A stretch of DNA of 32,620 bases, from the NCBI GenBank assembly GCA_947624055.1, contig CANQIW010000004.1, positions 1 to 32,620 of the forward strand, in the 5' to 3' direction. Within the stretch, counting starts at the first letter, position 1; every line of letters begins with the position of its first letter. The position numbers and the translations under genes are program-made. Source of the stretch: an uncultured Lachnospiraceae bacterium. GTDB lineage: Bacteria > Bacillota > Clostridia > Lachnospirales > Lachnospiraceae. Of this stretch, positions 1,566-28,009 are shown piece by piece. The notes beneath the pieces are model-generated. The model searched no databases and was not told the origin of the DNA. It was given only the letters and a program-made list of their open reading frames with translations.

Positions 1566-1646
1566 CCCATAAGAGGCAGGCAGAAATATAGATTGGCAGG
1601 TCTACGTGCCACAAACAAACGGATTTTGCGCGGAAGGAATGCGGAT

Positions 1647-3734
1647 ATGGGGGCTGTTCTGTTTCAGCACAACAAAACTGCATACGAATCAGCGCTTACC
1701 ATGCTTGCTAAAAAGGGGCGCGCGGCCGTGATCCATCCGACCGGCACAGGGAAGTCATTCATCGGGCTTAAGCTGTGTGCGGATTTTCCGGACAGGACTG
1801 TCTGCTGGTTGTCGCCGTCTGAGTACATTTTCCGGACGCAGTTGGAGAATTGGCGGGTGGCATGTGGCGGCACTCTGGCAAATATCCGCTTCTGTACCTA
1901 CGCGCGACTTATGATGATGGAAGCAGGGGAGCTCACGGAGATCTGTCCAGATTACATAGTATTGGATGAGTTCCACAGGTGCGGCGCGAAGATGTGGGGA
2001 CAGGGAGTACAGCGGCTGCTAGCGCAGTACCCGAAAACTCCTGTGCTCGGGCTCTCCGCGACGAACATCCGTTATCTGGACGGGCAGCGGGATATGGCCG
2101 ACGAGCTCTTCGGTGGGAACATCGCCTCGGAGATGACGCTCGGCGACGCGATCGTGCGCGGTATCCTGAATCCGCCGAAATATGTGCTCTCGATGTATTC
2201 CTGTCAGAAGGAGCTGGAACGCTGCCGTGAGCGGGCGAAGAATGCGAAGAGCAGGGCAGTGCGCGCGGAGGCGGAGAAATATCTGGAAACCTTGAAACGC
2301 GCGCTGGAGAAAGCAGACGGGTTGGATGAGGTTTTCCGGAAGCACATGGAAAACAGATCCGGAAAATATCTTGTATTCTGTTCCGATTATGAACATATGC
2401 AGGAGATGATCGCGAAAGTGCCGGAGTGGTTTGCGAAGGTGGACCCTGAGCCGCACATATACTCTGTCTATTCGGAGGATGCGCGGGCGGAGACGGAATT
2501 CGCAAGGTTCAAGGCGGATGAGAGCGCTCACCTGAAGCTTCTGTTTTGCATTGATATGCTGAACGAGGGAGTTCATATGAATGACGTCAGCGGCGTGATC
2601 CTGCTGCGGCCGACAGTTTCGCCGATCATCTACAAGCAGCAGATCGGACGGGCGCTGTCCGCTGGGAAGAGCCGGGGTGAGAACGCCGTGATTTTCGATG
2701 TGGTCATGAACATAGAGAACCTCTGCAGCATCGGTACGGTCGAGGAAGAGATGCAGGCGGCGGTGCGGTATTACCGGGAACGCGGGAAAAGCAGCTTTAT
2801 TGTCAACGAGCACTTCCATATCACGGACGAGGTGCAGGACTGTATGCGGCTGTTCCGCAAGTTGAACGAAACGCTGGGCGCCTCGTGGGAACTGATGTAT
2901 CAGGCGGCGGAACAGTATTTTGAAAAGCATGGAAATCTGGAAGCGACGAAGCGTTATGTGACAGAGGACGGCCTGTCATTGGGACAGTGGCTGGACACGC
3001 AGCGGAAGGTGCGGGCCGGAAAGGTGCAAGGCATTCTCACAGGATCACAGATTACGAGACTGGATCGGCTCGGTATGCGCTGGCAGTCGAAGGCAGACCA
3101 GAATTGGGAGCGCTATTTCGCGGCGGCGCAGGAATACTACCGGGAGCACGGGAACCTGCTGGTGAACGTGCGGGATGGGAAATACGGCGGCGTAAATCTG
3201 GGTAAATGGCTCGCGCAGCTGCGCACTTATAAGAAGAGCGGCATCCGCAACGCATACATGACTCAGGAGCGCATAGCGGCGCTGGACACAATAGGTATGG
3301 TCTGGGATGTGCCAGATTATTTCTGGGAGCAGAATTATCATGCGGCGCTGCGATACCACCGCGAACATGGAAATCTGGACGTCCCTTATTATTACGTGGA
3401 TTCGAATGGAGTCAAGCTTGGGGTCTGGATTGCGAATACAAGATTCGCCCGGCGAACCGAAGGAACCGGCAGGGCGGAGCTGACGGAAGAACAGGTAGCC
3501 CGGCTCGATGAGCTGGGGATGATCTGGGAGAACAGGAACAATGCCATCTGGGAGAAAGCTTATATGGCCGCCTGCAGGTACCGCAAAAAGTATGGGAACC
3601 TGAACATCCCGGTCGCCTACGTGACCGAGGACGGCTGTCATCTGGGGCGGTGGATCCGAAAGCAGAAAGAGACATATCATACCGGGATGAACGCGGAGCG
3701 CAGGAAAAAGCTGGAAGCGCTCGGGGTAGAGTAA
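1647..3734 (+). CDS. DExH-box superfamily 2 helicase with four tandem helicase-associated (HA) domains
   Basis: HPTGTGKS (Walker A), LDEFHRCG (motif II), QQIGRALSAG (motif VI); four W-x..HGNL..LG.W..LG(M).W repeats. ATG 1647 with GGAAGGAA upstream preferred over TTG 1593. Confidence 0.85.
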   Translation: MGAVLFQHNKTAYESALTMLAKKGRAAVIHPTGTGKSFIGLKLCADFPDRTVCWLSPSEYIFRTQLENWRVACGGTLANIRFCTYARLMMMEAGELTEICPDYIVLDEFHRCGAKMWGQGVQRLLAQYPKTPVLGLSATNIRYLDGQRDMADELFGGNIASEMTLGDAIVRGILNPPKYVLSMYSCQKELERCRERAKNAKSRAVRAEAEKYLETLKRALEKADGLDEVFRKHMENRSGKYLVFCSDYEHMQEMIAKVPEWFAKVDPEPHIYSVYSEDARAETEFARFKADESAHLKLLFCIDMLNEGVHMNDVSGVILLRPTVSPIIYKQQIGRALSAGKSRGENAVIFDVVMNIENLCSIGTVEEEMQAAVRYYRERGKSSFIVNEHFHITDEVQDCMRLFRKLNETLGASWELMYQAAEQYFEKHGNLEATKRYVTEDGLSLGQWLDTQRKVRAGKVQGILTGSQITRLDRLGMRWQSKADQNWERYFAAAQEYYREHGNLLVNVRDGKYGGVNLGKWLAQLRTYKKSGIRNAYMTQERIAALDTIGMVWDVPDYFWEQNYHAALRYHREHGNLDVPYYYVDSNGVKLGVWIANTRFARRTEGTGRAELTEEQVARLDELGMIWENRNNAIWEKAYMAACRYRKKYGNLNIPVAYVTEDGCHLGRWIRKQKETYHTGMNAERRKKLEALGVE

Positions 3735-3849: not shown

Positions 3850-5187
3850 ATGAAGCATGAAAATCGAAAAAGAACCATCCGTTTCAGTCCACCGGACATA
3901 AGTGAAGCGGAGATTGCGGAAGTTGCGGAGGCACTGCGCAGCGGCTGGATTACGACAGGCCCGAGAACAAAACTTCTCGAAAGACGTTTGGCGGCATACA
4001 TAGAAACCGGAAAAACGGATATAGAGGCGAATGATGAATACTCCAACAGAGTTGTCTGCCTGAATTCGGCAACGGCTGCGGAAGAATTAAATCTGCGTAT
4101 TCTCGGTATCAGGCCGGGCGACGAGGTGATTGTACCGGCTTATACTTATACGGCGACAGCGAGTGCGGCGATCCATGCAGGAGCGACGGTAAAATTTGTT
4201 GACATTCAAAAGGATGGCGACCCAATCACACATATGCCGGAGATGGATTACGAACAGGTGGAGAATGCCATCACGGAAAGAACGAAAGCTGTAATCCCTG
4301 TTGACCTTGGCGGTATAGTCTGCGATTATGACAGGATTTTTGAAATTGCAGAACGAAAAAAGCATCTATTCACACCGCTTGAGGATCACAGTGATTCTCT
4401 GGCAGATCTGTCGTCTCGCATACAAAAAGCCATGGGAAGGATTGCTGTTGTCGCGGACTGTGCCCACAGCCTTGGCGCTTCTCGGATTGTAAATATCCTA
4501 GAGGCAGAAAAAACAGAGAAAGCCAGAAGATACTGCGGTGCAATAGCTGATTTTTCGAGTTTTTCATTTCATGCGGTCAAAAATTTTACGACGGCAGAGG
4601 GCGGTGCGGCTACCTGGTTACCAATCGCTGGAGTTGATGATGCCGAGATTTATCATATGTACCAGCTGCTTTCTCTGCATGGGCAGAGTAAGGATGCCCT
4701 AGCCAAGATGAAGATCGGAGCGTGGGAATATGACATTATCGGTCCGTGGTACAAATGCAACATGACGGATGTTATGGCGGCAATCGGATTACGACAATTG
4801 GACAGGTATAAGGGATTGCTTGCGCGGAGATGGGAGATCCTGAAAAGATACGATGCCGTTTGTGATGAACTGGGAGTCAGTCGTCTGATTTATCGCACGG
4901 ATTGCATGGACAGTTCGGGACATCTTTGCCTGATCCGGATACCCGGTATAGGGGAAGACGACAGAAACAGGATCATAGAGAGGATGGCGGAGCAGGGTGT
5001 AGCGACGAATGTCCATTATAAACCGCTTCCGATGATGACAGCCTATGGGAAGGACTGTAGAGAGTACCCGAATGCATTCGATTATTATAGCAATCTGATT
5101 ACACTGCCACTTCACACAGGATTGGATGATGAAGATGTGGAGTATGTATGCGGGAAGCTGAAGAGTTTATTGGAAATATCCAGATAA
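3850..5187 (+). CDS. DegT/DnrJ/EryC1/StrS family PLP-dependent sugar aminotransferase
   Basis: PGDEVIVPAYTYTATASA, DCAHSLGA, SFHAVKNFTTAEGGA (PLP lysine region). Confidence 0.9.
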   Translation: MKHENRKRTIRFSPPDISEAEIAEVAEALRSGWITTGPRTKLLERRLAAYIETGKTDIEANDEYSNRVVCLNSATAAEELNLRILGIRPGDEVIVPAYTYTATASAAIHAGATVKFVDIQKDGDPITHMPEMDYEQVENAITERTKAVIPVDLGGIVCDYDRIFEIAERKKHLFTPLEDHSDSLADLSSRIQKAMGRIAVVADCAHSLGASRIVNILEAEKTEKARRYCGAIADFSSFSFHAVKNFTTAEGGAATWLPIAGVDDAEIYHMYQLLSLHGQSKDALAKMKIGAWEYDIIGPWYKCNMTDVMAAIGLRQLDRYKGLLARRWEILKRYDAVCDELGVSRLIYRTDCMDSSGHLCLIRIPGIGEDDRNRIIERMAEQGVATNVHYKPLPMMTAYGKDCREYPNAFDYYSNLITLPLHTGLDDEDVEYVCGKLKSLLEISR

Positions 5188-5195
5188 GGGAAAAC

Positions 5196-5867
5196 ATGAA
5201 GAAGAACAGAATTCTGATAATAGCTGCTCATCCAGATGACGAATTGTTAGGATGCGGTGCGACGATTGCAATGTATACGTCAAGCAAGGATAATATAGTG
5301 CATTCTATCATTCTCTGTGAGGGAGAAAGTATGCGTTCGCAGGATGGTAACGCGAAGCAGTCTGCAATGAAAAAAGCGGCCAAGGTTCTCGGAATAGAGT
5401 CTGTAGAATGCATTGGTCTTCCTGACCAGCATCTTGATTCTGTGCCGATTGTGGAAATTATAACACCAATTGAAAAAGTGGTTGCTGATTTTCAACCAAA
5501 TATCATTTATGTCCACAGCGGAGCTGATATAAATAAAGATCACAAGATTGTTTTTGACGCTGCTCTTGTGGCGCTTCGCCCCAAAAATGTGTTCATAGAG
5601 GAAATATATAGTTTTTACATAGCCAGTGCGACTGAATGGGGGTATCCAAGAACATTCAATCCGGACACATGGGTTGGATTTGATAAAGAAGTCATGCAAA
5701 AAAAACTGGACGCTTTTGCGTGTTATGAGACAGAACTGTGTGATTATCCTCATCCGCGCTCACTGATGGCAATAGAGAATCTGGCAAAGACGATGGGAAA
5801 TCAATGCTGTATGGATTATGCAGAAGTGTTTGAAACAATAAGAAGAGTAGACAGGTGGGCCAGATAA
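5196..5867 (+). CDS. PIG-L/LmbE family N-acetylglucosaminyl deacetylase-like protein
   Basis: IIAAHPDDELLGCG and HSGADINKDH zinc motifs; start at ATG 5196. Confidence 0.9.
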   Translation: MKKNRILIIAAHPDDELLGCGATIAMYTSSKDNIVHSIILCEGESMRSQDGNAKQSAMKKAAKVLGIESVECIGLPDQHLDSVPIVEIITPIEKVVADFQPNIIYVHSGADINKDHKIVFDAALVALRPKNVFIEEIYSFYIASATEWGYPRTFNPDTWVGFDKEVMQKKLDAFACYETELCDYPHPRSLMAIENLAKTMGNQCCMDYAEVFETIRRVDRWAR

Positions 5868-8408: not shown

Positions 8409-8651
8409 ATGACAAATCAGGAAAAGTACAACAAAGCTTTTATGACCGCTCTGGAGATTACGGAAGGACAGCTTTCCGGGCTTAAATATCAGGAGATTGA
8501 GGCCTGGGATTCTGTCGGCCACATGGGACTGGTCGCAGCACTTGAGGATGCGTTTGACATCATGATGGACACGGATGATATCATTGATCTCAGTTCTTAT
8601 GAAAAGGGGATGGAGATTCTTTCCAGGGAAGAGTACGGGATTGTGTTTTAA
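8409..8651 (+). CDS. Acyl carrier protein-like
   Basis: 80 aa acidic protein with WDSVGHMGLV phosphopantetheine attachment motif. Confidence 0.85.
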   Translation: MTNQEKYNKAFMTALEITEGQLSGLKYQEIEAWDSVGHMGLVAALEDAFDIMMDTDDIIDLSSYEKGMEILSREEYGIVF

Positions 8652-8676
8652 GCGGAATCTTGCGGATTTGTGACGA

Positions 8677-10122
8677 ATGTCTGAGGGAGTGGAGCAAAAC
8701 GGAATGGAAAAGATCTGGGATCTGGAAGAACACAAACAGAATACGGCCCTGCTGGATGACCAGGGGAATGCGCTCTCATATGGAGAACTGGCGCGGGAAT
8801 GCCATATCCTGTCGGATGCGGCAGGGAAGCGCTGTCTGGTATTCTGCCTGTGTGAAAACAGCATTGGTTCAATCCTTGGGTATGTGGCCTTCCTGGATTC
8901 CGGCATTGTGCCGGTGCTGCTGAACCGGCACCTGGACCGGGAACTTCTGGGCGGGCTGCTGCAGGCATACTGCCCGGCATATCTCTGGGTACCGCAGGGG
9001 CAGGAGGCGGATTTCCCAGGCATGGAGGCGGTGTACCGGGCATGGGGTTACAGCCTGGTGCGGACAGACTATGGCAGGGAATATCCCATGCATCCGGACC
9101 TTGCCCTCCTGCTCACAACCTCTGGCTCAACGGGCAGCCCGAAATTCGTCCGGCAGAGCAGCACGAACATCCGGGTGAATGCGGAATCCATCGTGCAGTA
9201 CCTCGGGCTGGATGAGACAGAACGCCCGGTCACGACCCTGCCGATGAACTATACTTACGGCCTGTCCATCATCAACAGCCACCTGCTGGCGGGTGCGGGG
9301 ATCCTGGTCACGGAAAAGGGTCTGATGCAGAGGGAATTCTGGAGTTTTTTCCGTGAGCAGGGCGCGACATCATTCGGAGGCGTGCCCTACACCTATGAGA
9401 TGCTGGACCGGCTGCGGTTTTTCCGGATGGACCTGCCGTCGCTGCGGACGATGACGCAGGCGGGCGGGAAGCTCCAGCCGGAGCTCCATGAGAAATTTGC
9501 GAGATATGCCCAGGGAAATGGGAAGCGTTTTGTCGTTATGTACGGCCAGTGTGAGGCCACTGCCCGCATGGGCTATCTTCCCCCAGGCAGGGCGGTGGAG
9601 AAAAAGGGCTCCATGGGGATCGCCATCCCGGGCGGCCGCTTCAGGCTGAAAGACACTGACGGGAATGAGATCACAGAGCCCTATACGGAGGGGGAACTGG
9701 TCTACGAGGGCGCGAATGTCACGCTGGGCTATGCGGAGCGCGGGGAGGACCTTGCGGAGGGCGACGAGCGGCATGGGGTGCTGGAAACCGGGGACATGGC
9801 AAAGTTCGACGGGGATGGGTACTACTACATTACAGGGAGGAAGAAGCGCTTCCTGAAGATCTATGGGAACCGGGTGAACCTGGATGAGATTGACCGTATG
9901 GTCAGGGGGCATTTCGGCGGGCTGGACTTTGCCAGCGCGGGTACGGACGACCAGATGTACCTGTTCGTCACGGACGGGTCAGTGGCCGGGGAGGTCCGGA
10001 CGTTTGTGTCCCAGAAAACAGGCCTGAACCCGGCGGCATTCCGGACGGTGGTGCTTGGCGCGATCCCACGGAATGATTCCGGGAAGACCCTGTACCGGGA
10101 ACTGGAGCGGTATTACGGATGA
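8677..10122 (+). CDS. AMP-dependent synthetase/ligase (ANL family acyl-adenylating enzyme)
   Basis: LLTTSGSTGSPK, YGQCEATARM, ETGDMAKFDGDGYYYITGRKKR. Confidence 0.9.
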   Translation: MSEGVEQNGMEKIWDLEEHKQNTALLDDQGNALSYGELARECHILSDAAGKRCLVFCLCENSIGSILGYVAFLDSGIVPVLLNRHLDRELLGGLLQAYCPAYLWVPQGQEADFPGMEAVYRAWGYSLVRTDYGREYPMHPDLALLLTTSGSTGSPKFVRQSSTNIRVNAESIVQYLGLDETERPVTTLPMNYTYGLSIINSHLLAGAGILVTEKGLMQREFWSFFREQGATSFGGVPYTYEMLDRLRFFRMDLPSLRTMTQAGGKLQPELHEKFARYAQGNGKRFVVMYGQCEATARMGYLPPGRAVEKKGSMGIAIPGGRFRLKDTDGNEITEPYTEGELVYEGANVTLGYAERGEDLAEGDERHGVLETGDMAKFDGDGYYYITGRKKRFLKIYGNRVNLDEIDRMVRGHFGGLDFASAGTDDQMYLFVTDGSVAGEVRTFVSQKTGLNPAAFRTVVLGAIPRNDSGKTLYRELERYYG

Positions 10123-10137
10123 ACCCGCCATGGATGG

Positions 10138-10160
10138 GCCTGTTCCCTGCAGGAACAGGC
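10138..10160. other. Perfect 9-bp hairpin in the gap between ligase and LuxE-LuxC ORFs
   Basis: GCCTGTTCC-CTGCA-GGAACAGGC with no T tract. Confidence 0.6.
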
Positions 10161-10228
10161 GGAAGCCGTGGGCATGGGACGGACGGCAGTTTGCATTTTT
10201 ATGAGGAAAAACAGTCTGGAGGACAGGG

Positions 10229-12646
10229 ATGGATTACAGTAGGATTCTGAAGATACCACCGTTTTCCCTCGGGAGGGCGGAAAAGGAAAAACTGCTCACC
10301 GGGCGTCTGCTGGGGCTGACGGAGCACCACAGGCTGAACTGCCCGGAGTACAGGCGGATGCTGGAGGCGTCCGGTTATGATGGCACGGCGGCAGCCTCAT
10401 ACAGGGACATCCCGTTCCTGCCGGTGCGCATGTTCAAGGAGCTGTCCCTGAAAAGCGTGGCAGACGGCGAAGTGGTGAAAACGGTGACATCTTCGGGAAC
10501 CACAGGGCAGGCAGTATCGAAGATATTCCTCGACCGGACAACGGCGGCAAACCAGCAGAAGACGATGGCGAAGATCGTGTCGGATTTTACCGGCACGGAC
10601 CGTATGCCGATGATAATCCTGGACTGCCCGTCTGTGGTGAAGGACCGGCGGATGTTCTCGGCGCGGGGTGCTGGGATCCTGGGATTCTCAGTTTTTGGCT
10701 CGAGGAGGGTCTACGCTCTGGACGACGACATGAAGCTTGATGTGGAAGGGCTGGAAGAATTCCTGGGGCAGCACCGTGGGGAACGGATCCTCCTTTTCGG
10801 GTTCACGTTCATGGTCTGGCAGCATTTTTACAAGGAACTGGTCCGGCTGAAAGGTGAGGGGATCACGTTCGACCTTTCGGAGGGGGTCCTGATCCATGGC
10901 GGCGGATGGAAGAAGCTCGTGAACGAGGCGGTGGGTCCGGAGGAATTCCATGCAAGTCTGAGGGAAGCCTGCGGGCTGGACGACATACACGACTACTATG
11001 GGATGGTGGAGCAGACCGGCTGCATCTATATGCAGTGTGAGTACGGGCACCTGCACGCGAGCATCTTTTCCGATGTGGTGATGAGGAACCCGCTTGACTT
11101 CAGCGAGTGCGGTATTGGGGAGAAAGGGATTATACAGGTACTTTCGGCGATCCCGGAGTCCTACCCCGGACATTCGCTGCTGACAGAGGATGAGGGGATC
11201 CTGCTCGGGGAGGATGACTGCCCGTGCGGGCGGAAAGGGAAATATTTCAGGGTGCTCGGGCGCCTGAAAGACGCAGAGATCCGCGGGTGCAGCGACACGT
11301 ATGCAGCGGGGTTTCGTGCAGTTGGGGAAACTACCCGGGAGAAAGCCGGGACATATCTAGCCGGAACACAGACGGGCTCAGGGACAGCGGACAGGGGACA
11401 GGGTGAGAAGAAGCCAGACGTGGAGCCTGACAGAACGTTGGATGCACTTTCGTCTGTGCGCTTCCTTGTCGGGAGTGCACAGACGGTGCGGCAAATGCCG
11501 TCGCTCTCCCCATGGGAGCCATTTGACGGCAGGGTGCTGGAATTCCTGGACGGGGTGTCAGGAAACCTGATGGCGGACAGGGAGGCAAGGGCGTATCCGG
11601 ACGTGGTGACGTTCGCGTTCTGGATCCGGAAGGCGAACACGCGGAGGCTGGAGGGGCGCTTTGCCAGGGACGCGGGAAATGGGAATATCCGTCTGGGACG
11701 CGGCACGGCGTTCCACATCGCGCCGTCCAACGTGCCGGTGAATTACGCGTACTCGCTCGCTGCCGGGCTCCTGGCGGGGAATGCCAACATTGTGAGGATC
11801 CCGTCAAAGGACTTCCCACAGGTGGGGCTGGTCAACAGGGCGCTCAGGTCTGCGCTGGAAAGGTATCCATATATGGAACCGTACATATGCCTTGTACGGT
11901 ATGGGCGTGACCGCGCGGTGAACGACCTGTTCTCGTCCATTGCCGATGTCCGTGTTGTCTGGGGCGGGGATGCCACGGTCGCGGAGCTGCGCAGGTCGCC
12001 GCTTGGCTCACGGGCCGGGGAAATCACATTTGCGGACCGGTTCTCGGTTGCGGTAGTCGACAGCGATGCGTACATGGATCTTTTGGACAGCGGAAAGGGG
12101 AAGGCGGCGGAGGGATTCTACAACGACACGTACCTGACCGACCAGAACGCCTGCACGAGCCCGCGGCTGGTCGCCTGGCTGGGCGGCCGGAAGGAAGAGG
12201 CAAAAACGGAATTCTGGGGACGGCTGCACAGGCTTACGGAAAGAAAGTATGGCTTCCAGCCAATCCAGGGGGTTGATAAGCTGGCGGACAGCTACCGTGC
12301 CGCGGCAGTGACGGATGGTATCCGGATCGAAGGGCACGCGGACAACCTGCTTGTACGTGTCCGGGTGGAGACGGCCCCGGCTGCACTGATGGATTATAAA
12401 GGTAATTCAGGCTACTTCTTTGAATACGACTGCGGGAACATCCTGGAGCTCCGGGAGCTGTGTGACGACAGGCGCTGCCAGACGGTGGCGTACATCGGGG
12501 ACAGGACTGCGCTGCTCCCGCTTGTGAGATCCGGGGTAAAAGGGGTTGACCGGATCGTGCCGGTCGGGAAGACGATGGATTTTGATTTGCTCTGGGACGG
12601 ATACGACCTGATGGAGCGGATGACGAGGACGATGACAATAGAATAA
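10229..12646 (+). CDS. Fused LuxE-like acyl-protein synthetase (N) and LuxC-like acyl-CoA/acyl-protein reductase (C)
   Basis: N half: VTSSGTTGQ, LIHGGGWKKL, DYYGMVEQTG, EIRGCSD near the end of the LuxE part. C half: FHIAPSNVPVNYAYSLAAGLLAGNANIVRIPSKDF and DQNACTSPR catalytic-Cys region. Confidence 0.85.
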   Translation: MDYSRILKIPPFSLGRAEKEKLLTGRLLGLTEHHRLNCPEYRRMLEASGYDGTAAASYRDIPFLPVRMFKELSLKSVADGEVVKTVTSSGTTGQAVSKIFLDRTTAANQQKTMAKIVSDFTGTDRMPMIILDCPSVVKDRRMFSARGAGILGFSVFGSRRVYALDDDMKLDVEGLEEFLGQHRGERILLFGFTFMVWQHFYKELVRLKGEGITFDLSEGVLIHGGGWKKLVNEAVGPEEFHASLREACGLDDIHDYYGMVEQTGCIYMQCEYGHLHASIFSDVVMRNPLDFSECGIGEKGIIQVLSAIPESYPGHSLLTEDEGILLGEDDCPCGRKGKYFRVLGRLKDAEIRGCSDTYAAGFRAVGETTREKAGTYLAGTQTGSGTADRGQGEKKPDVEPDRTLDALSSVRFLVGSAQTVRQMPSLSPWEPFDGRVLEFLDGVSGNLMADREARAYPDVVTFAFWIRKANTRRLEGRFARDAGNGNIRLGRGTAFHIAPSNVPVNYAYSLAAGLLAGNANIVRIPSKDFPQVGLVNRALRSALERYPYMEPYICLVRYGRDRAVNDLFSSIADVRVVWGGDATVAELRRSPLGSRAGEITFADRFSVAVVDSDAYMDLLDSGKGKAAEGFYNDTYLTDQNACTSPRLVAWLGGRKEEAKTEFWGRLHRLTERKYGFQPIQGVDKLADSYRAAAVTDGIRIEGHADNLLVRVRVETAPAALMDYKGNSGYFFEYDCGNILELRELCDDRRCQTVAYIGDRTALLPLVRSGVKGVDRIVPVGKTMDFDLLWDGYDLMERMTRTMTIE

Positions 12647-12661
12647 TAAAAAGGTGTAACG

Positions 12662-13384
12662 ATGGAGTATGAAGATAACCATAATTCTACAGGACAAAAA
12701 AAGAATGCTCTTTACAGAGAACTCCTTAAATATGAACAGCACACAGAGTTCACAAAAGGTCAGATCGTATATTTGAAAGTCAAAAGAGTTTTGGATATAT
12801 TTCTGGCGATAATCCTTTTGCTTCCGGCGTTTTTTGTAACGACTGTGTTTGCCGTCTGGATAAAGTCAGAATCAAAAGGGCCGATTTTCTTTACGCAGAA
12901 AAGACCGGGATACAGGAAAAGAATTTTTTCGATATACAAACTCCGATCAATGAAAATTGAGACGGTTGACGGATCAGGCAGATTTCTATCTGATAAGGAA
13001 AGGCTTACGAAATCAGGGTATTGGGCGAGGAGAACCAGCGCGGATGAATTGCCGCAGTTGATAAATATACTCAAAGGAGAAATGTCGTTTATAGGGCCGA
13101 GACCACAGTTGATAAATGATCTGCCGACATTTACAGATGAGCAAATGTGCCGCTTTGACATATTGCCTGGGATTACAAGCCTTCCTGCAATTCATGGAAG
13201 GAACAACCAGCCCATCGCAGAGAAATATAATTGGGACACATATTATGTAAAGCATATTTCCTTTATGCTTGATCTGAAAATATTTATTAAGACTGTATTG
13301 TTAGTATTTTCGCAAAAAGATATAGATGATGAAATAAACGATGTGATTCCAGCTGGGAAAATAATCAACGAAGATAAAATTTAG
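12662..13384 (+). CDS. Polyprenyl-phosphate sugar-1-phosphate transferase (initiating sugar transferase)
   Basis: KRVLDIFLAI, PIFFTQKRPG, YKLRSMK, TSADELPQLINILKGEMSFIGPRP. Confidence 0.92.
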   Translation: MEYEDNHNSTGQKKNALYRELLKYEQHTEFTKGQIVYLKVKRVLDIFLAIILLLPAFFVTTVFAVWIKSESKGPIFFTQKRPGYRKRIFSIYKLRSMKIETVDGSGRFLSDKERLTKSGYWARRTSADELPQLINILKGEMSFIGPRPQLINDLPTFTDEQMCRFDILPGITSLPAIHGRNNQPIAEKYNWDTYYVKHISFMLDLKIFIKTVLLVFSQKDIDDEINDVIPAGKIINEDKI

Positions 13385-17982: not shown

Positions 17983-19247
17983 AATTTGACATTATGAGCT
18001 ATGGAAAATCGTTATTTAGAAAGCGTTCTGTTAAAAACGGGATATGGTTATATACCCTGCAGTTTTTTAATATGGTGCTGCCGCTGGTGACTTTACCATA
18101 TATAACCAGGATTTTAGGCGCTTCACAGTATGGCGTTTTTTCGATCGTTCTGAATTTTGTTTCTTATCTGCAAGTTGTTGTAGAGTATGGGTTTGCTTTA
18201 TCTGCGACCCGGAGTGTGGCCCTGGCGCACGAAAAAGATGACCTGAGCAGCTTATTTACGACAGTAGTGTGCTCCAGACTGGTTTTGTTTGTTATCTGTA
18301 TCATGCTCACCGTAGGGAATATCCTGATTTTTGACAGACCTTTGGTAACGAATCTATGTTTCCTTACGTTATCGTGCAGCCTGATCGGCTACGTTCTGCA
18401 GGAAAATTGGATTTTTCAGGGCAAGCAGGAAATGAAATATATTTCCATATGCACAATCATTGCAAGAAGCGTAACTACTTTATTGATATTCTTTGTAATT
18501 AAGTCGCCGGATGACATTCTTCTTTATTGTATTCTGTATTCGCTTTCTCCGATCCTTGCAAACTTGATTGGCACGACATTGGCAATGAGAAGGTATCATC
18601 TGCGGTTTGTTAAAATAGAGATATCGGATCTGATTGCTTCTCTGAAAAGCGGAATGTACATATTTTTCAGCCAGTTAAGCTCAAAGGTCTTTGGAGCGAT
18701 AGGGGTCACTTTTCTCGGTATGTTTGCCAGCAACAAGGATGTTGGAATTTATTCGGCGATATACAAGATACCTTATGTCATTATGCTTTTATGGAGTCCG
18801 ATCGGACAGATATTGTATCCGATCACGAGTAAAAGGATAGCGGCTTCTAATGTAGATGGGTATCGTTTTATTCGAAGGATAAAGAAATATGCACTGGCAT
18901 TTTTTGGAGTGATAGCTCTTGGCATCGGAGCGTTTGCAAAACCGGTTACCTCTATCGCTTTTGGAAAAGAATATGCGTCCAGGTTTTATATTATCTATCC
19001 TTTACTGGCGTGGGATCTGTTAGGGATAAATAATAATTTTGAAGGAATCCAGACATTGGTTGGAAGCGGCTGCGATAAAGAGTATAGCAGATGTTTTCAG
19101 ATTGGAGTTGTTGGAACGGTTCTTTTTAATTTTATATTTATCTATACAATGGGAATTAATGGCGCCGCAATTGCTCCTTTAGTATCAGAAGGATTACTGG
19201 CGCTTTTGCTGCATATCCAAATTAAAAAGATCGGGAAATACAAATGA
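17979..19247 (+). CDS. Oligosaccharide flippase (Wzx-like, MOP superfamily)
   Basis: PLVTLPYITRILGASQYGVFSIVLNFVSYLQVVVEYGFALSATR. Confidence 0.9.
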   Translation: MKFDIMSYGKSLFRKRSVKNGIWLYTLQFFNMVLPLVTLPYITRILGASQYGVFSIVLNFVSYLQVVVEYGFALSATRSVALAHEKDDLSSLFTTVVCSRLVLFVICIMLTVGNILIFDRPLVTNLCFLTLSCSLIGYVLQENWIFQGKQEMKYISICTIIARSVTTLLIFFVIKSPDDILLYCILYSLSPILANLIGTTLAMRRYHLRFVKIEISDLIASLKSGMYIFFSQLSSKVFGAIGVTFLGMFASNKDVGIYSAIYKIPYVIMLLWSPIGQILYPITSKRIAASNVDGYRFIRRIKKYALAFFGVIALGIGAFAKPVTSIAFGKEYASRFYIIYPLLAWDLLGINNNFEGIQTLVGSGCDKEYSRCFQIGVVGTVLFNFIFIYTMGINGAAIAPLVSEGLLALLLHIQIKKIGKYK

Positions 19248-19264
19248 CAGATTTGGAGGGGATT

Positions 19265-20404
19265 ATGAAGAAGATTATGCTGGTTTTCGGAACCAGGCCG
19301 GAAGCGATAAAAATGTGCCCCTTGGTTAACGAATTAAAGAAAAGGAAGGGTATTCAGGTGGTGGTCTGTGTTACGGGCCAGCACAGACAGATGCTGGATG
19401 AGGTTTTATCAGTATTTCGTGTTGTTCCGGATTATGATCTGTCTATCATGAAGCAGGGACAGACCCTGTTCGACATTACTGCGAATATCCTGGAGCGGAT
19501 TCGTTTTGTTTTGGAAGAAGCTGCGCCGGATGTGGTTCTGGTACATGGCGATACTTCTACTACGTTTGTGACGGCATTGGCATGTTTTTATCTCCGCATC
19601 CCTGTAGGACATGTGGAAGCCGGACTCAGAACTCATAATATCTTCTCCCCCTATCCGGAAGAGTTCAATCGGCAGGCCGTAAGCATCATTTCAAGATATA
19701 ACTTTGCCCCGACGCAGCTCGCCGCACGGAATCTCATTCAGGAAGGGAAGGATCCTTCCACGGTTTATATTACAGGCAATACTGTTATTGATGCCATGCG
19801 CTATACTGTGAAGGAGGATTATACCCATCCGGAACTGGATTGGGCGGGGGATGGAAGACTCATTTTTATTACGGCCCACCGTCGAGAGAATCTCGGAGAG
19901 CCGATGCGCCGAATGTTCCGTGCAATCCGACGTGTCCTGAATGAACATCCCGAGTGCAGGGCTGTATTTCCGATTCATATGAATCCATTAGTGCGAGAAG
20001 CCGCAGACGCAGAACTGCGGGGCTGCAGCCAGATCCATATTATTGAACCGATCGAGGTATTCGATTGCCACAACTTTGAAGCACGATGTTATCTTTGCCT
20101 GACGGATTCCGGCGGAATCCAGGAGGAATGCCCGTCCTATGGAAAACCTGTTCTGGTAATGAGGGATACGACCGAGCGGCCGGAAGGGGTAGAAGCGGGA
20201 ACCTTGAGGTTGGTGGGGACGGATGAAGACGTCATTTACAAGAATTTTAAAGAACTGCTGGAGGATAAAGAGGCGTATCTTTCCATGACCCGTGTATGTA
20301 ATCCCTATGGCGATGGTCATGCGTGTGAAAGGATAGCGAATATCCTTGAAGGGAAAGCATATTCAGCATGGGATGGAGCCGATCCTCAAATGGAAAGAAG
20401 GTAA
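19265..20404 (+). CDS. wecB: UDP-N-acetylglucosamine 2-epimerase, non-hydrolysing type
   Basis: FGTRPEAIKMCPLV, VHGDTSTTF, GHVEAGLRTHNIFSPYPEEFNRQ, DSGGIQEECPSYGKPVLVMRDTTERPEG; GGAGG before ATG 19265. Confidence 0.9.
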   Translation: MKKIMLVFGTRPEAIKMCPLVNELKKRKGIQVVVCVTGQHRQMLDEVLSVFRVVPDYDLSIMKQGQTLFDITANILERIRFVLEEAAPDVVLVHGDTSTTFVTALACFYLRIPVGHVEAGLRTHNIFSPYPEEFNRQAVSIISRYNFAPTQLAARNLIQEGKDPSTVYITGNTVIDAMRYTVKEDYTHPELDWAGDGRLIFITAHRRENLGEPMRRMFRAIRRVLNEHPECRAVFPIHMNPLVREAADAELRGCSQIHIIEPIEVFDCHNFEARCYLCLTDSGGIQEECPSYGKPVLVMRDTTERPEGVEAGTLRLVGTDEDVIYKNFKELLEDKEAYLSMTRVCNPYGDGHACERIANILEGKAYSAWDGADPQMERR

Positions 20405-20412
20405 AACAGCAA

Positions 20413-21066
20413 ATGAAAACGGTAGCGTTAATTCCAGTCAAATTAGGCAGTAAACGCGTGCCAGGTAAGAACATTAAGCCGTTTTTCGATGGCACCCCAC
20501 TTATGCATTTCATCCAGCGTGCCTGCCTGGATGCAAAGACAATCAATGAGGTTTACGTATACTGTTCTGATAAAGCTGTGAAGGAATACCTTCTTCCCGG
20601 TGTCCGTTTCCTTCAGAGACCTGAGTATCTGAATGGTGACAATATCAATGCAAATGATTTTATTAAGGAATTTATAAAGTCTGTGGAGGCAGATATTTAT
20701 GTGAATGCCCATACGACATCTCCTTTTGCAAAGCCGGAAACGATTGACGATTTAGTCAATCATGTTGCAAGCGGCGAATATGACAGTGCGTTCTGTGCCG
20801 AAGCTTATCGCACTTTTATGTGGCAGGATGGGAATCCGATCAATTTTGACCCGGATCATTTTCCGCGTACGCAGGATCTTCCGGTGATTTATGGGGAGAC
20901 TTCAATTGCTTATGTGTTTACCAGGGAATCCTTCCTGAAGCATAACAGGAGGCTTGGGTCACATCCATACATCAGAGAGGTAGGTAAAATCGAAGCGATG
21001 GATATTGATTACCCGGAGGATTTTGAAATCTGCAATGCAATTTATAAGGAGATAATGAAGAAATGA
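20413..21066 (+). CDS. Acylneuraminate/Kdo-type cytidylyltransferase family protein
   Basis: ALIPVKLGSKRVPGKNIKPFFDGTPL, NAHTTSPFAKPETIDD. Confidence 0.85.
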   Translation: MKTVALIPVKLGSKRVPGKNIKPFFDGTPLMHFIQRACLDAKTINEVYVYCSDKAVKEYLLPGVRFLQRPEYLNGDNINANDFIKEFIKSVEADIYVNAHTTSPFAKPETIDDLVNHVASGEYDSAFCAEAYRTFMWQDGNPINFDPDHFPRTQDLPVIYGETSIAYVFTRESFLKHNRRLGSHPYIREVGKIEAMDIDYPEDFEICNAIYKEIMKK

Positions 21067-22100
21067 GCGTTCAGATAACAGACTGCACGATAAGGGATGG
21101 AGGGTATCTGTTCAATAAGAATTCCAGTCCGGAATTTGTCAGGGGTATTATGAAAGGCCTTGCTGATGCTGGGATCGATTATGTGGAAACCGGTTTTTTG
21201 CAGACAAATGTGACCGGAGATACTTTGGTATATGACAATTCCATCGATGCAAGAAAATATCTCCCTGCAGACCAGGGGGCAACAAAATTTCTTGGATTTT
21301 GTGATAACAGCAGATACTCATTAGATCGACTGGATGTCTATGATGGCAGATCCTTCAAATGGCTCCGTATTTCATTTGCGCAGCATGAAATTGATGAGTC
21401 GCTGGAATTTTGCGCCGGCGCGATGAAGAAGGGCTATTGTGTCCAATTCAATCCTATGGACTCTATCAGCTATACTGACGATGCCAGGGCAAGCTTGATT
21501 GAAAAGGTTAATAAGGTAAAGCCTGCTTCATTTTCCATTGTGGATACATTTGGGGCGATGGACATGGTGGATCTTGTCCACATATTCAGGCAGGTTGATT
21601 CTCTGCTTGACAGAGAAATAAAAATCGGGCTGCATTCTCATGATAATTTAGGATTGTCATGCGCTCTCGCTGAAAGAATGATTGAACTTGCGGAAGAGAC
21701 TGGCAGAGACGTTATTTTAGATGGTTCTCTGTTCGGAATGGGACGGGGCGCCGGGAATGCGAAAACGGAGCTTCTCGCGGATTATATCAATAAGCATTCC
21801 GGAGGACATTATGATCTTCGGAGATTGCTTGAGACAATTGATACATACATCACTCCTGTTTTACCAAGTATACACTGGGGATATGATCTCCCTATGTATA
21901 TATGTGGAACGAAACATTCCCATGTTGACAATGCATACCATCTGAAGAATAAATTCGGATGTACTGCAAACGAGATGTTTGAAGTGATGGAATCATTGTC
22001 CCCGCAGCAAAGGACACGTTATGGAATAGGGTATTCAAAGACAGATTTTTCGCAGCTTGACGCATTATATGAAAGCTACAGGAAGGGAACTATGTCATGA
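21063..22100 (+). CDS. HMGL-like (DRE-TIM) aldolase, 4-hydroxy-2-oxovalerate aldolase-like
   Basis: ITDCTIRDGGYLFN, YVETGF, IGLHSHDNLGLS, GMGRGAGNAKTELL. Confidence 0.85.
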   Translation: MSVQITDCTIRDGGYLFNKNSSPEFVRGIMKGLADAGIDYVETGFLQTNVTGDTLVYDNSIDARKYLPADQGATKFLGFCDNSRYSLDRLDVYDGRSFKWLRISFAQHEIDESLEFCAGAMKKGYCVQFNPMDSISYTDDARASLIEKVNKVKPASFSIVDTFGAMDMVDLVHIFRQVDSLLDREIKIGLHSHDNLGLSCALAERMIELAEETGRDVILDGSLFGMGRGAGNAKTELLADYINKHSGGHYDLRRLLETIDTYITPVLPSIHWGYDLPMYICGTKHSHVDNAYHLKNKFGCTANEMFEVMESLSPQQRTRYGIGYSKTDFSQLDALYESYRKGTMS

Positions 22101-23696
22101 ATTGTGCAGAGTATCTTGTTGATTTTCTGATAAAAAAGGGAGTTACTGATGTGTTTGGTTATTCGGGTGGATATATTGTACCTTTTATTGATGCATTATA
22201 TTCCCGTAAAGGGGAGATTAATGTTCACGTCTGCTACAATGAGCAGGGATGCGCCTATGCTGCCGACGGTTATGCACGCGCCAGTGGGAAACTTGGAGTA
22301 TATTTTACGACTTCCGGACCCGGCGCTGTGAATGCTTTTGGCGGACTTGCAGATGCCTGGTTTGACGGTGTACCACTGATGGGCATAAGTGGAAATGTGC
22401 CGACGAACGAACAGAGGGGGTATTCCGGCGTCAGGCAGAATGGATTTCAGGAAATGGAAATTGTATCTATGACCAAGCATATTACAAAATATTCTGTTTC
22501 ACCGAACCATGCGGAATCTTTTCCGGATATCGTGTCCAGGGCATACAATCTTGCCACAACTGGCAGACAAGGGGGTGTGGTTATTGATTTTCCGTTTGAC
22601 ATCCAAGAAACCAGTATTGATCATAGGTAATGGAGCCCGTGCGGCTGATGCCGGCGACCTTATTTATAAATTTATAGAGAAAACGCATATTCCGGTACTA
22701 ACCAGCATGAATACTGTCGATATGGTACAGGATAAATATCGTATCGGCTTTATTGGTACATATGGGAACAGGATAGCCAATATGATCCTGAATGAATGCG
22801 ATTTCGTAATCTCTGTCGGTGCAAGACTTGGTCTGCGCCAGATCGGGCATATGAAAGAGCTGTTTGCGCCTCATGCAAAACTTATCCGATGCGATGTTGA
22901 TCAATATGAGTTGGGAAGGCAGGTTAAGGAGGACGAAGAAAAATATAATTTCGATGCCAGATACTTTATGGAATTACTTTTGAAAGAGGAAATTCCCGAC
23001 TATATCGACTGGTGGAACAGATGTCATACGGCAAAAAAGTTGCTGGAGGGATACGATGATACAGAAGGTAATATACTGATTGATCATATTGCCCGGTTAT
23101 TGCCGGAAAATCCGATCGTGACTGTGGATATTGGGCAGACAGTTTGCTGGGTAGCACAGTCGCTTTGGCTTAAAGGGATAAATGGAAGGATCATCATAGG
23201 TGGAAGTTATGGAGCTATGGGGGTTGGGCTTCCATATGCTATCGGAGCATCGATCTCGAATAATAAGGGGATCACATACTGTATTACTGGTGATGGTGGG
23301 TTACAGATGAACATTCAGGAACTTGAGACGGTAAAGAGAGAAAAGCTACCTATAAAGATTCTTGTTGTGAATAACAGGGAGCTGGGCAAGATCAGTGAAA
23401 TTCAACATAGCTCCTATCATGACAGGTTTTGCATCACAACTGCTGAAAGTGGTTATACCGTTCCGGATTTTGAAAAGATAGCGATAGCATACGGCATTAA
23501 AGCGGCCACCTTGCCCTCTTACCAAGGACTTGAGGGATATAAAAGTTGGCTATATGATAACGAACCATGCTTGCTGAATATTATGCTTACGCAATTGACA
23601 CTTTTGATTCCCAAAATAAAGTGGGAAACGGGCACGATTAAACCTGATTTAGAAGGAGCTCTCCTTCAAAAAGTAAATTCCCTCATAGGAGCGTAG
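22097..23696 (+). pseudogene. TPP-dependent acetolactate synthase-like enzyme, disrupted (frameshift and apparent linker deletion near 22601-22615)
   Basis: N part: NEQGCAYAADGYARASG...GGVVIDFPFDIQ then stop at 22630. +1 frame continues KKPVLIIGNGARAADAG ... GDGGLQMNIQELETVKREKLPIKILVVNN. Confidence 0.75.
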
Positions 23697-23701
23697 AAAA
23701 T

Positions 23702-24622
23702 ATGATTAAGTATCTTGTCATGGATGTTGATGGAAGTCTTACAGACGGTAAGATCTACATGGGTTCTCGCGGAGAAGTAATGAAGGCTTTTTCAATCAAG
23801 GATGGATATGCGATCAGGAATGTTCTTAAGGCATATGGAATTGTTCCCATAGTCATTACCGCGAGGATTAGCTCAATTGTTCAAAATCGTTGTGATGAAC
23901 TTGGCATTAATCATGTGTATCAAGGAAAGATGGATAAGCTGAATACGTTAATGGGGATTGTCGGAGAGGCAGAATTGGGTCGGTGCGCGTACTTTGGAGA
24001 TGATATTATAGATATCAAGTGCATGCTGCCAATTAAAGAGGCTGGCGGGGTGATTGGCTGTCCATCCGATGCCGTACAGGAAGTGAAGGCAGTCGCTGAT
24101 TATATTTGTCTCAGCAAGGCCGGAAATGGAGCTTTGCGAGAATTTGCCGAATGGATTGTAAAACCAAAGGTTGATCCTGATGGGCTAAAGAGCAGGTTAG
24201 ACCATGCAGTCAGTTATCTGAAAAACATAACTGTTTCGGAAACTGATGCTGGCGCGAAAGTTATCGTTGACAAAAATTTCTATTACACTATTCAAAGCTA
24301 TAGTACGAAGCCTGAGAATGAAGCAATACTGGAATCACATAGGAAATATGTCGATATTCAGATAATGGTCAGCGGGGAAGAACAGATGGATTTGGCAGAT
24401 ATATCCCGCTTGACAATAAAGGAGAACTATAACCCAGAAAATGATGTGATTGTCTGGAATATTCCAAAGAGGATGGCTAGAATAACGCTTACAGCCGGTG
24501 ACAGTGTTATTTTATACCCCGAAAATGCCCATCGGGGAGCTATTATGAACAGAAACAAGAGTCATAAAGTTTTGAAAATTGTTGGGAAGGTAAGAAGTGC
24601 TGAAATAGTAAGCTATGAATAA
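23702..24622 (+). CDS. KdsC-like HAD phosphatase fused to a YhcH/YjgK/YiaL (DUF386) domain
   Basis: N: VMDVDGSLTDGKIYMGSRGEVMKAFSIKDGYAI, YFGDDIIDIKCM; C: ESHRKYVDIQIMVSGEEQMDLAD ... VILYPENAHRGAI. Confidence 0.85.
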   Translation: MIKYLVMDVDGSLTDGKIYMGSRGEVMKAFSIKDGYAIRNVLKAYGIVPIVITARISSIVQNRCDELGINHVYQGKMDKLNTLMGIVGEAELGRCAYFGDDIIDIKCMLPIKEAGGVIGCPSDAVQEVKAVADYICLSKAGNGALREFAEWIVKPKVDPDGLKSRLDHAVSYLKNITVSETDAGAKVIVDKNFYYTIQSYSTKPENEAILESHRKYVDIQIMVSGEEQMDLADISRLTIKENYNPENDVIVWNIPKRMARITLTAGDSVILYPENAHRGAIMNRNKSHKVLKIVGKVRSAEIVSYE

Positions 24623-26251: not shown

Positions 26252-26280
26252 TTGATAAATCCTCCCGGAGATGCTATAGT
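26252..26280 (+). promoter_or_regulatory. SigmaA-type promoter for the AAA-ATPase-like gene
   Basis: TTGATA, 17 bp, TATAGT; the TTG taken as ORF start in the track is this -35 box. Confidence 0.7.
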
Positions 26281-26329
26281 GAAGCAGACAGATTGTGCGC
26301 CGAAGCATGCATCAGGAGGCGAAAATGGA

Positions 26330-28009
26330 ATGAGTGAAATGAAGAAAAAGCTGCCAGTGGGCATTGATAATTTTGAAAAACTGCGTACGCAGGATTTTTA
26401 TTATGTCGATAAAACAGGGCTGGTTGCCGATCTCATGAACAACTGGGGAGAAGTGAACCTGTTCACCCGCCCGCGGCGGTTCGGGAAGACGCTGAATATG
26501 AGCATGCTGAAATCTTTCTTTGAGATCGGCGGGGATAAGAGTTTATTCGACGGGTTGGCTGTAAGCCAGGACACGGCGCTGTGCGGGAAACATATGGGTA
26601 AATATCCGGTGGTGTTCCTTTCGCTCAAGGGCGTGGACGGACTGACGTTTGAGGATGCGTATAAAATGCTGGCCGAAATCATTCGACAGGAGGCGTTTCG
26701 TCTGCAATTTCTGGCGGACAGCGACGTATTGACGGACGATGAGAAGCAGCCTTTGCGGAATCTTATGGGGCGCAGGGAAGATTCCTCTGGTATCAGGAAC
26801 AGTCTGAAAATGTTCTCCTCTCTTCTTGAGAAGCACTACGGCCGGAAGACTATCATTCTGATTGACGAGTATGATGTGCCGCTGGACAAGGCGTACCAGC
26901 ATGGGTATTACGACCAGATGATCGATCTGATCCGGGCGATGTTCGGCGCGGCGCTAAAGACCAACGACAGCCTGTTCTTCGCAGTGCTGACGGGGTGTCT
27001 GCGCGTGTCCAAAGAGAGTATTTTCACGGGGCTCAACAACCTGAAGGTACATTCCATCTCGGACGTAAAGTACGATGAGTATTTTGGCTTCACGGATCGG
27101 GAGGTCGGCGGCATGCTGGCGTACTATGGACTGGAGAAATTCCGGGAAGAAGCGCGGGAATGGTATGACGGATACCGCTTCGGCGGGCAGGACGTGTACT
27201 GCCCATGGGATGTGATTAACTACTGTGATGATTTGCGGGGCGATCCGGAGGCTGAGCCGAAATCTTACTGGCTGTATACCAGCGGCAACGATATGGTGCG
27301 CAGGCTTATTGAAAAGACGCCTGATGGTACGACACAGATGGAAGTGGAAGAGCTGATCGCAGGAAATACGGTTACCAAACAGTTGAACGAGCAGCTCACT
27401 CATAATGAGATTGGGGACAACGTTGACAATATCTGGAGTCTCCTGTACATGACGGGCTACCTGACAGTTACGCGGAGACCGTCCGGCGGCAGATATACGC
27501 TGCGCATACCGAACCGTGAGGTCCGGCAGATTTTTATGCGGCAGGTGCTGGCCTGGTTCCGCAATAAGGCGGAAGCGGAGACCGGTAAACTTGCTGAGTT
27601 GTATGCGGCTTTTGAAAAGGGTGATACGGAAACGATAACAGATTATCTGAACGAACAGCTGCTGGACACTGTCAGCTTCTACGACGCGCGGGAATCCTTT
27701 TATCATGGGTTCCTTCTGGCGCTGCTGAATACCTGTGCAGGATGGCGCGTTTCATCGAATCTGGAAACCGGCAGGGGCCGGAGCGATATTATCGTAGAAA
27801 GCAAGGATCGAAGGATTGGCTTTGTTGTGGAAGTGAAAGACGTCAGGGACGAGAGAAAACTTAACGGCGCCTGTGAAACAGCCGTAAAGCAGATTGAGGA
27901 GAAAGATTATACGGCAATCCTGCGGCGCTATCGCGTGGAGGAAATCTGGATATACGGCATCGCGTTCTGGGAAAAGGAATGCAGAGTCGTGGCAAAACGG
28001 GAGGCGTAA
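26330..28009 (+). CDS. AAA-ATPase-like protein with C-terminal PD-(D/E)XK nuclease domain
   Basis: LPVGIDNFEKLRTQDFYYVDKTGLVADL, FTRPRRFGKTLNMSML, IDEYDVPL, and C-terminal GRSDIIVE...GFVVEVK. Confidence 0.9.
   Translation: MSEMKKKLPVGIDNFEKLRTQDFYYVDKTGLVADLMNNWGEVNLFTRPRRFGKTLNMSMLKSFFEIGGDKSLFDGLAVSQDTALCGKHMGKYPVVFLSLKGVDGLTFEDAYKMLAEIIRQEAFRLQFLADSDVLTDDEKQPLRNLMGRREDSSGIRNSLKMFSSLLEKHYGRKTIILIDEYDVPLDKAYQHGYYDQMIDLIRAMFGAALKTNDSLFFAVLTGCLRVSKESIFTGLNNLKVHSISDVKYDEYFGFTDREVGGMLAYYGLEKFREEAREWYDGYRFGGQDVYCPWDVINYCDDLRGDPEAEPKSYWLYTSGNDMVRRLIEKTPDGTTQMEVEELIAGNTVTKQLNEQLTHNEIGDNVDNIWSLLYMTGYLTVTRRPSGGRYTLRIPNREVRQIFMRQVLAWFRNKAEAETGKLAELYAAFEKGDTETITDYLNEQLLDTVSFYDARESFYHGFLLALLNTCAGWRVSSNLETGRGRSDIIVESKDRRIGFVVEVKDVRDERKLNGACETAVKQIEEKDYTAILRRYRVEEIWIYGIAFWEKECRVVAKREA

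Follow-up and report, generated by a model that had tools for sequence, protein, structure and literature searches.

In bacteria that give no light, homologues of LuxE and LuxC frequently carry bioluminescence or fatty acid annotations. A pair set among genes for a surface polysaccharide is found in a stretch of 32,620 nucleotides from an uncultured Lachnospiraceae bacterium (contig CANQIW010000004.1, the whole stretch being referred to here as the window), in which one open reading frame (ORF) of 805 amino acids carries a LuxE-like and a LuxC-like half. The module sits in a polysaccharide locus, since the gene of an initiating sugar-phosphate transferase (Bac_transf) adjoins it. With moderate confidence, we propose for this protein a function of the RfbN type, as a carboxylic acid reductase that works in two steps on one chain and would feed the hydroxy-acid N-acylation of a surface sugar. 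The closest relative described so far is RfbN, a coat-sugar enzyme of Vibrio cholerae O1. The cassette to which the protein belongs most probably serves not for light but for making a small hydroxy-acid with which surface sugars are decorated.

Domains and catalytic cysteines of the fusion protein

The ORF is open throughout its length (10229-12646), with zero internal stops. A first-pass annotation of this DNA had recognized the LuxE-like and LuxC-like halves, and both Pfam families were indeed matched above cut-off, PF04443 (LuxE) at residues 6-358 with 182.5 bits (cut-off 24.9) and PF05893 (LuxC) at residues 488-649 with 80.2 bits (cut-off 21). By sequence, its two relatives of solved structure are the LuxC and LuxE chains of the Photobacterium phosphoreum complex 7xc6. 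In the phmmer search against the PDB, the EIRGCSD motif around Cys354 paired with EQKGCS of the LuxE chain and the DQNACTSPR motif around Cys642 with DQQACFS of the LuxC chain. The candidate cysteines proposed earlier, at codons 11288 and 12152, are thus exactly placed; both align with the 7xc6 nucleophiles, are invariant in 13 of 13 diverse homologues and are also retained in an RfbN-type protein (L169, see below). The LuxE half contains the ANL adenylation motifs SSGTTGQ, YGMxEQ, TED and GR, which are invariant or nearly so in the alignment of the 13 homologues. Because it has kept these motifs of its own, the LuxE half should adenylate the free acid itself, in the manner of luminous LuxE.

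The AlphaFold2 (AF2) model of the protein (predicted local distance difference test, pLDDT, 88; predicted template modelling score, pTM, 0.82) consists of two confident domains. Residues 351-400 have a pLDDT below 50 and are modelled as disordered, this segment starting at the LuxE cysteine; it fits a swinging tail, such as would be expected if the acyl group is carried to the LuxC half. A fold search with the model ranked 7xc6 first, and PaaK-type ligases came up for the remaining half.

Distance from the luminous enzymes

The luminous LuxC-LuxE complex (7xc6) shares with the window protein both families and both catalytic cysteines, and is its best fold match. Unlike the window protein, however, it is made of separate chains, has LuxD and luciferase as partners and acts on a long-chain substrate. 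With the NCBIfam long-chain equivalog models NF052244 (LuxE) and NF052251 (LuxC), the 805-amino-acid protein scored 57 of 550 and 28 of 750 bits, respectively, whereas a true lux operon (L171) reached 726 and 921 bits. Both halves are, on these sequence scores, distant from luminous LuxE and LuxC. No match to the luciferase family PF00296 was obtained across the source genome of the window, which is 78% complete, and the positive control matched in 10 genomes. LuxD was not found in this genome, in a search that ran without positive control. A role in light or long-chain aldehyde production was rejected, given the poor match to the NCBIfam models and the lack of a luciferase-family hit in the genome; the earlier view that the aldehyde is not meant for light agrees with these results and with the glycan context.

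A second LuxE and LuxC, unfused and with a FabD gene between them, lie on another contig of the same genome (contig C1, locus L048). This second copy is also accompanied by genes for an acyl carrier protein (ACP), an ANL ligase, a transketolase pair and a protein of the lactate/malate dehydrogenase (LDH/MDH) family with Arg102, and is a chain-building variant of the cassette.

A conserved cassette in a polysaccharide locus

Relatives were collected by a pattern scan of one genome per species, which gave at least 585 of them. The best 80, those most window-like, were surveyed; 59 of these loci had enough flank for neighbourhood counts. Gene calls in the surveyed loci are longest ORFs, with start codons accordingly. 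The first-pass annotation had noted an ACP and an ANL ligase directly upstream of the fusion (8409-8651 and 8677-10122), and this linkage is a general one: among the best 80, LuxE is adjoined by an ANL gene in 77, by LuxC in 73 and by an ACP in 67. At the 59 well-flanked loci, LuxC was counted 59 times, ANL 56, ACP 50 and a short-chain dehydrogenase/reductase (SDR) 42, and a recognisable N-acyltransferase was present at 28. LuxE and LuxC gene pairs overlap or are at most 60 bp apart in 84 of 86 cases. ACP, ANL, LuxE and LuxC occur together on Deinococcus, Rhizobium and Ponticoccus plasmids and in other Firmicutes, and the ACP-(SDR)-ANL-LuxE-LuxC cassette is found in Deinococcus, Rhizobium, Ponticoccus, Clostridia, Bacteroides, Treponema and Enterobacterales. 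Because it recurs in dozens of unrelated genomes, the linkage is not due to chance. Phage records gave a single weak match. Within the same genus, an unfused LuxE/LuxC pair was present in 3 of 24 other genomes.

In the window, the ACP, SDR, ANL, LuxE and LuxC families are all contiguous within a glycan locus. Genes for an aminotransferase, a PIG-L deacetylase, an LpxD-like protein, two SDRs, the ACP and the ANL ligase precede the fusion on the same strand, and those for the initiating sugar-phosphate transferase, LicD, glycosyltransferases, a Wzy-like protein and a flippase lie 3' of it (Table 1). Two operons of gut Clostridia (L076 and L088) hold orthologues of the LpxD-like, SDR(s), ACP, ANL, LuxE and LuxC genes in the window order, at 45-78% identity; there, in contrast to the fusion of the window, two overlapping genes encode LuxE and LuxC. 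Identities between L076 and the window are 62% for the LpxD-like protein (62-64% when L088 is included), 68% for the SDR, 75% for ACP, 65% for ANL, 72% for LuxE, 45% for LuxC and 57% for Bac_transf, and PIG-L is also present. The window ACP had zero Pfam matches at the default limit and was seen only at a looser one, with a weak PF00550 (PP-binding) score of 15 bits, under the 20.8 cut-off. The serine of its DSV motif (Ser35) is conserved without exception among the ACPs of the cassette that were aligned (80 of 80).

Table 1. Features of the fusion protein and its operon in the window
Feature	Position	Strand	Basis
DegT family sugar aminotransferase, PseC-like	3850..5187	+	PF01041 258 bits; TIGR03588 PseC 248 of 423 bits
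PIG-L family deacetylase	5148..5867	+	PF02585 82 bits; adjoins LpxD-like gene in L076 too
LpxD-like hexapeptide acyltransferase, 308 aa	5890..6816	+	TIGR01853 LpxD 182.7 bits, under 242.5 cut-off
FabG-like SDR 1, 256 aa	6842..7612	+	PF13561/PF00106; orthologue 75% in L088
FabG-like SDR 2, 251 aa	7619..8374	+	PF13561/PF00106; orthologue 76% in L088, 68% in L076
Acyl carrier protein, 80 aa, phosphopantetheine Ser35	8409..8651	+	weak PF00550; conserved DSV serine
ANL-family ligase, 481 aa	8677..10122	+	PF00501 134 bits; in cassette at 77/80 LuxE loci
LuxE-LuxC fusion, putative carboxylic acid reductase, 805 aa	10229..12646	+	Pfam, AF2, fold search
LuxE half (residues ~1-360), disordered linker (~351-400), LuxC half (~405-805)	within the 805-aa protein
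Cys354, acyl-accepting, LuxE C-terminal tail, motif EIRGCSD	11288..11290	+	7xc6 alignment; 13/13 homologues
Cys642, LuxC reductase cysteine, motif DQNACTSPR	12152..12154	+	7xc6 alignment; 13/13 homologues
Initiating sugar-phosphate transferase (Bac_transf)	12662..13384	+	PF02397 177 bits; 57% orthologue in L076

Relation to rfbKLMN and to flagellin islands

Tetronate synthesis in V. cholerae O1 has been assigned to VC0248-VC0252 (PMC3441752), RfbL being assigned the activation of finished 2,4-dihydroxybutanoate, with RfbK as its carrier (PMC12208996), and a LuxE domain has been noted in RfbN (PMC4772473). A literature search on the biochemistry of tetronate synthesis gave nothing useful. Like the window, the V. 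cholerae O1 rfbKLMN (wbe) genes combine an ACP, an ANL ligase and a LuxE-LuxC fusion of about 825 amino acids in one operon of a polysaccharide locus, and their assigned function is the supply of a hydroxy-acid for N-acylation of an amino sugar. According to Morona et al. (1995), RfbM is reportedly an iron alcohol dehydrogenase (Fe-ADH) and RfbN a reductase; the window has two SDRs instead of RfbM. Two kinds of loci stand out in genomes of the order Enterobacterales, true lux operons (L171-L173) and operons with an ANL, Fe-ADH and fusion gene (L169, L170). The order is ACP-ANL-Fe-ADH-fusion (825 amino acids) in L169 and ANL-Fe-ADH-fusion in L170, and the gene content of these two loci matches rfbKLMN, an identity that rests on gene order and families. 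Both cysteines of the window protein align with those of the RfbN type; identity to the L169 protein is 34% for LuxE and 28% for LuxC.

Flagellin glycosylation islands of Aeromonas Group II and of enterobacteria have been reported to hold a cassette of ACP, 3-oxoacyl-ACP reductase, AMP-dependent synthetase, LuxE and LuxC, for which a 'liposugar' was proposed (PMC7874193, PMC4875605). These islands share the same five gene families and a glycan locus with the window. They differ from it in that LuxE and LuxC are separate, or ANL and LuxE are fused, and in being tied to pseudaminic acid, whereas the window is tied to an initiating sugar-phosphate transferase. The ANL-LuxE proteins (877 amino acids at L175:8838-11471 and 935 at L176:6470-9277), which leave LuxC separate and have NeuB-like genes adjoining, represent a second kind of fusion within the cassette.

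A tree of 128 LuxE sequences (quick search, supported only by the Shimodaira-Hasegawa-like approximate likelihood ratio test, SH-aLRT) separated the lux, RfbN and cassette types into three clades. The RfbN-type clade (SH-aLRT 99) stands apart from that of the window (SH-aLRT 98), which also includes Enterobacterales homologues. Because the window LuxE lies within the Clostridia part of the cassette clade, as sister to a fused protein (L086, SH-aLRT 94), the tree places the window protein as a fused member of this clade and not as a descendant of RfbN; simple descent from RfbN was rejected on the same separation. The window fusion, belonging to a clade separate from the RfbN type, probably arose independently, and several changes are needed on the tree to account for the fused state. 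That the fusion is an artefact of assembly or of a frameshift was also rejected: the frame is open, a linker predicted to be disordered separates two well-folded halves, the sister L086 (859 amino acids) is fused, and so are 6 of the best 80 relatives. The first-pass annotation had presented the fusion as unusual, which does not stand. Neither fusion nor cassette is unique, the RfbN type being already fused (L169, L170 and L138) and the cassette already described; the system is ordinary in kind and widespread, and the fusion is a further member of the described cassette clade.

Proposed route and candidate substrate

We infer the order of the steps and the acceptor sugar, as well as the substrate, from gene content and from the rfb analogy. 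The LuxE half would use ATP to adenylate a short free acid, whose acyl group it would take onto Cys354 in its flexible C-terminal tail; the tail would hand this group to Cys642 of the LuxC half for NAD(P)H-dependent reduction to the aldehyde. An adjacent SDR would then reduce the aldehyde (or a keto group) to give the hydroxy-acid. The ANL ligase, probably in an RfbL-like role, would activate the hydroxy-acid and load it onto the dedicated ACP, which would place ANL and ACP after the reductase. The LpxD-like hexapeptide enzyme, a probable acyl-ACP:amino-sugar N-acyltransferase, would then acylate a sugar nucleotide on an amino group that two other enzymes of the operon, the aminotransferase and the PIG-L deacetylase, make or expose; the latter may free the amine for re-acylation. 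The acylated sugar would then enter the surface polysaccharide. The window version would thus be a one-chain form serving an LpxD-like N-acyltransferase, and the ANL-LuxE fusions of L175 and L176, which also tie steps of the cassette together, count in favour of this route. The evidence favours a chemistry of short hydroxy-acids, used for the N-acylated surface sugars of gut Clostridia, Bacteroides, spirochaetes and enterobacteria.

By analogy with what has been proposed for V. cholerae O1, the acid would most likely be malate, giving a 2,4-dihydroxybutyryl (3-deoxytetronyl) group. Reduction of malate at C4, continued to the alcohol, would yield 2,4-dihydroxybutyrate, the O1 tetronate. An LDH/MDH-family gene is found near LuxC at 9 of the 59 well-covered loci, in the RfbN-type L138 and in the second copy of the own genome. 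L076, which differs from the window by this gene and by an extra thioesterase, has it between LuxC and Bac_transf, inside the operon type of the window. Position 102, which we take to be the site setting pyruvate versus oxaloacetate specificity, is Arg in 11 of 11 LDH/MDH-family proteins and Gln in the LDH 3wsv; Wilks et al. are said to have related the Q102R change of an LDH to this specificity in 1988. Such a malate-type dehydrogenase with Arg102, lying next to LuxC in related operons, suggests that malate is the starting acid and 2,4-dihydroxybutyrate its product.

The short hydroxy-acid reading may bear on a published flagellin glycan. In the flagellin heptasaccharide of A. piscicola AH-3, a Group II strain that has these cassette genes, one unit of about 102 Da is unidentified and another is a pseudaminic acid derivative of 376.14 Da (PMC7874193). 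Subtracting the other units from the published glycan total leaves 102.05, to be compared with 102.032 for C4H6O3, and pseudaminic acid with one acetyl swapped for dihydroxybutyryl has a computed mass of 376.148. That the 102-Da unit is dihydroxybutyryl is a lead and not evidence, since the published precision fits other formulas and O-methylglyceryl is isomeric.

Alternative explanations

The first-pass annotation had the ligase adenylate the acid and load it on ACP, from which it would pass to the LuxE cysteine, with LuxC making an aldehyde used directly on a sugar or lipid. The near-constant adjacency of ACP and ANL to LuxE/LuxC and the existence of ANL-LuxE fusions speak for this order, and luminous LuxE is likewise supplied with its acid by another enzyme, LuxD. 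The complete adenylation motifs of the LuxE half, however, imply a free acid and not an acyl-ACP, an LpxD-like transferase of the acyl-ACP type is present in the window operon and in the closest operons, and RfbL of V. cholerae has been assigned downstream of the reductase (PMC12208996); this flow therefore appears unlikely. We also regard as improbable a carboligation, in which the LuxE-LuxC aldehyde would be the acceptor for a thiamine enzyme and the resulting longer polyhydroxy acid would then be loaded on ACP. Candidate enzymes are a transketolase pair or, farther along the window locus, a thiamine pyrophosphate (TPP) enzyme (22097-23696) with an HMGL-like aldolase (at 21063). Transketolase N/C pairs are present at about 24, and TPP enzymes at 10, of the 59 well-covered loci, and L090 and L174 carry an HMGL-like protein inside the cassette. 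The window, however, has no transketolase pair, its TPP gene is frameshifted and 9.5 kb off among CMP-sugar-type genes, and the closest operons, L076 and L088, show none of these genes in view.

Two further possibilities have very little in their favour. A long-chain fatty aldehyde destined for lipid, as in luminous bacteria, would agree with the Pfam families, which are those of LuxE and LuxC, but the protein lies far under the NCBIfam long-chain cut-offs that a true lux operon protein passes, and the missing luciferase family, the failure to find LuxD in the search without control and the glycan context are consistent with another role. An oxidative direction, in which LuxC would convert an aldehyde to a thioester passed to ACP, draws on the aldehyde-dehydrogenase fold of LuxC, which often works oxidatively; it is scarcely probable, as it would leave without a role an ATP-dependent LuxE that has an invariant acyl cysteine and is coupled to LuxC in nearly all gene pairs.

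Several observations weigh against the route that we favour, reduction of a short acid followed by N-acylation. An LDH/MDH-family gene is absent from the window, so that malate is an extrapolation in its case, and the two LDH/MDH-family proteins that were scanned had L-lactate dehydrogenase as their best hidden Markov model. No RfbM-type Fe-ADH was seen among the window genes scanned, two SDRs are more than one aldehyde reduction requires, and the LuxE clade of the window is separate from the RfbN type. About half of the related loci also carry transketolase pairs or TPP, NeuB or FabA genes, for which the simple malate scheme has no use, so that loci may differ in their product. The literature found contained no biochemical work on the clade of the window.

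Other genes of the cassette and of the window

Split transketolase pairs (for example L083, L117 and L059) often lie between the SDR and ACP genes; a literature search for LuxE together with transketolase found nothing. A protein of about 546 amino acids, with an HMGL-like N-terminal part and the rest without recognised family, is encoded within or directly beside the LuxE/LuxC/ACP cassette at L090:5686-7326 and L174:114-1757. A GNAT-family protein of about 245 amino acids, possibly another acyl-ACP-dependent N-acyltransferase, is found just upstream of the cassette at 12 of the 59 loci (e.g. L111:4880-5617).

In the window itself, positions 19244-24622 hold in one run genes for a NeuC-type epimerase, a CTP transferase, the HMGL-like aldolase, the TPP enzyme and a YhcH/DUF386 protein. 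The TPP-dependent enzyme is acetolactate-synthase-like and is split by a frameshift, an assembly error or a broken gene, into two overlapping ORFs, 22097-22630 for the N domain and 22509-23696 for the middle and C domains. Since the NeuB family had zero matches among the window proteins scanned, this run may encode a ulosonic-type sugar pathway of an unusual kind. A helicase with four helicase-associated (HA) domains (1593-3734) lies where the polysaccharide locus ends on the left. Beyond the locus and unrelated to the fusion are a DUF5722 protein (29677-31809, minus strand, 446 bits) and an AAA-ATPase_like/PDDEXK_9 protein (26252-28009, plus strand).

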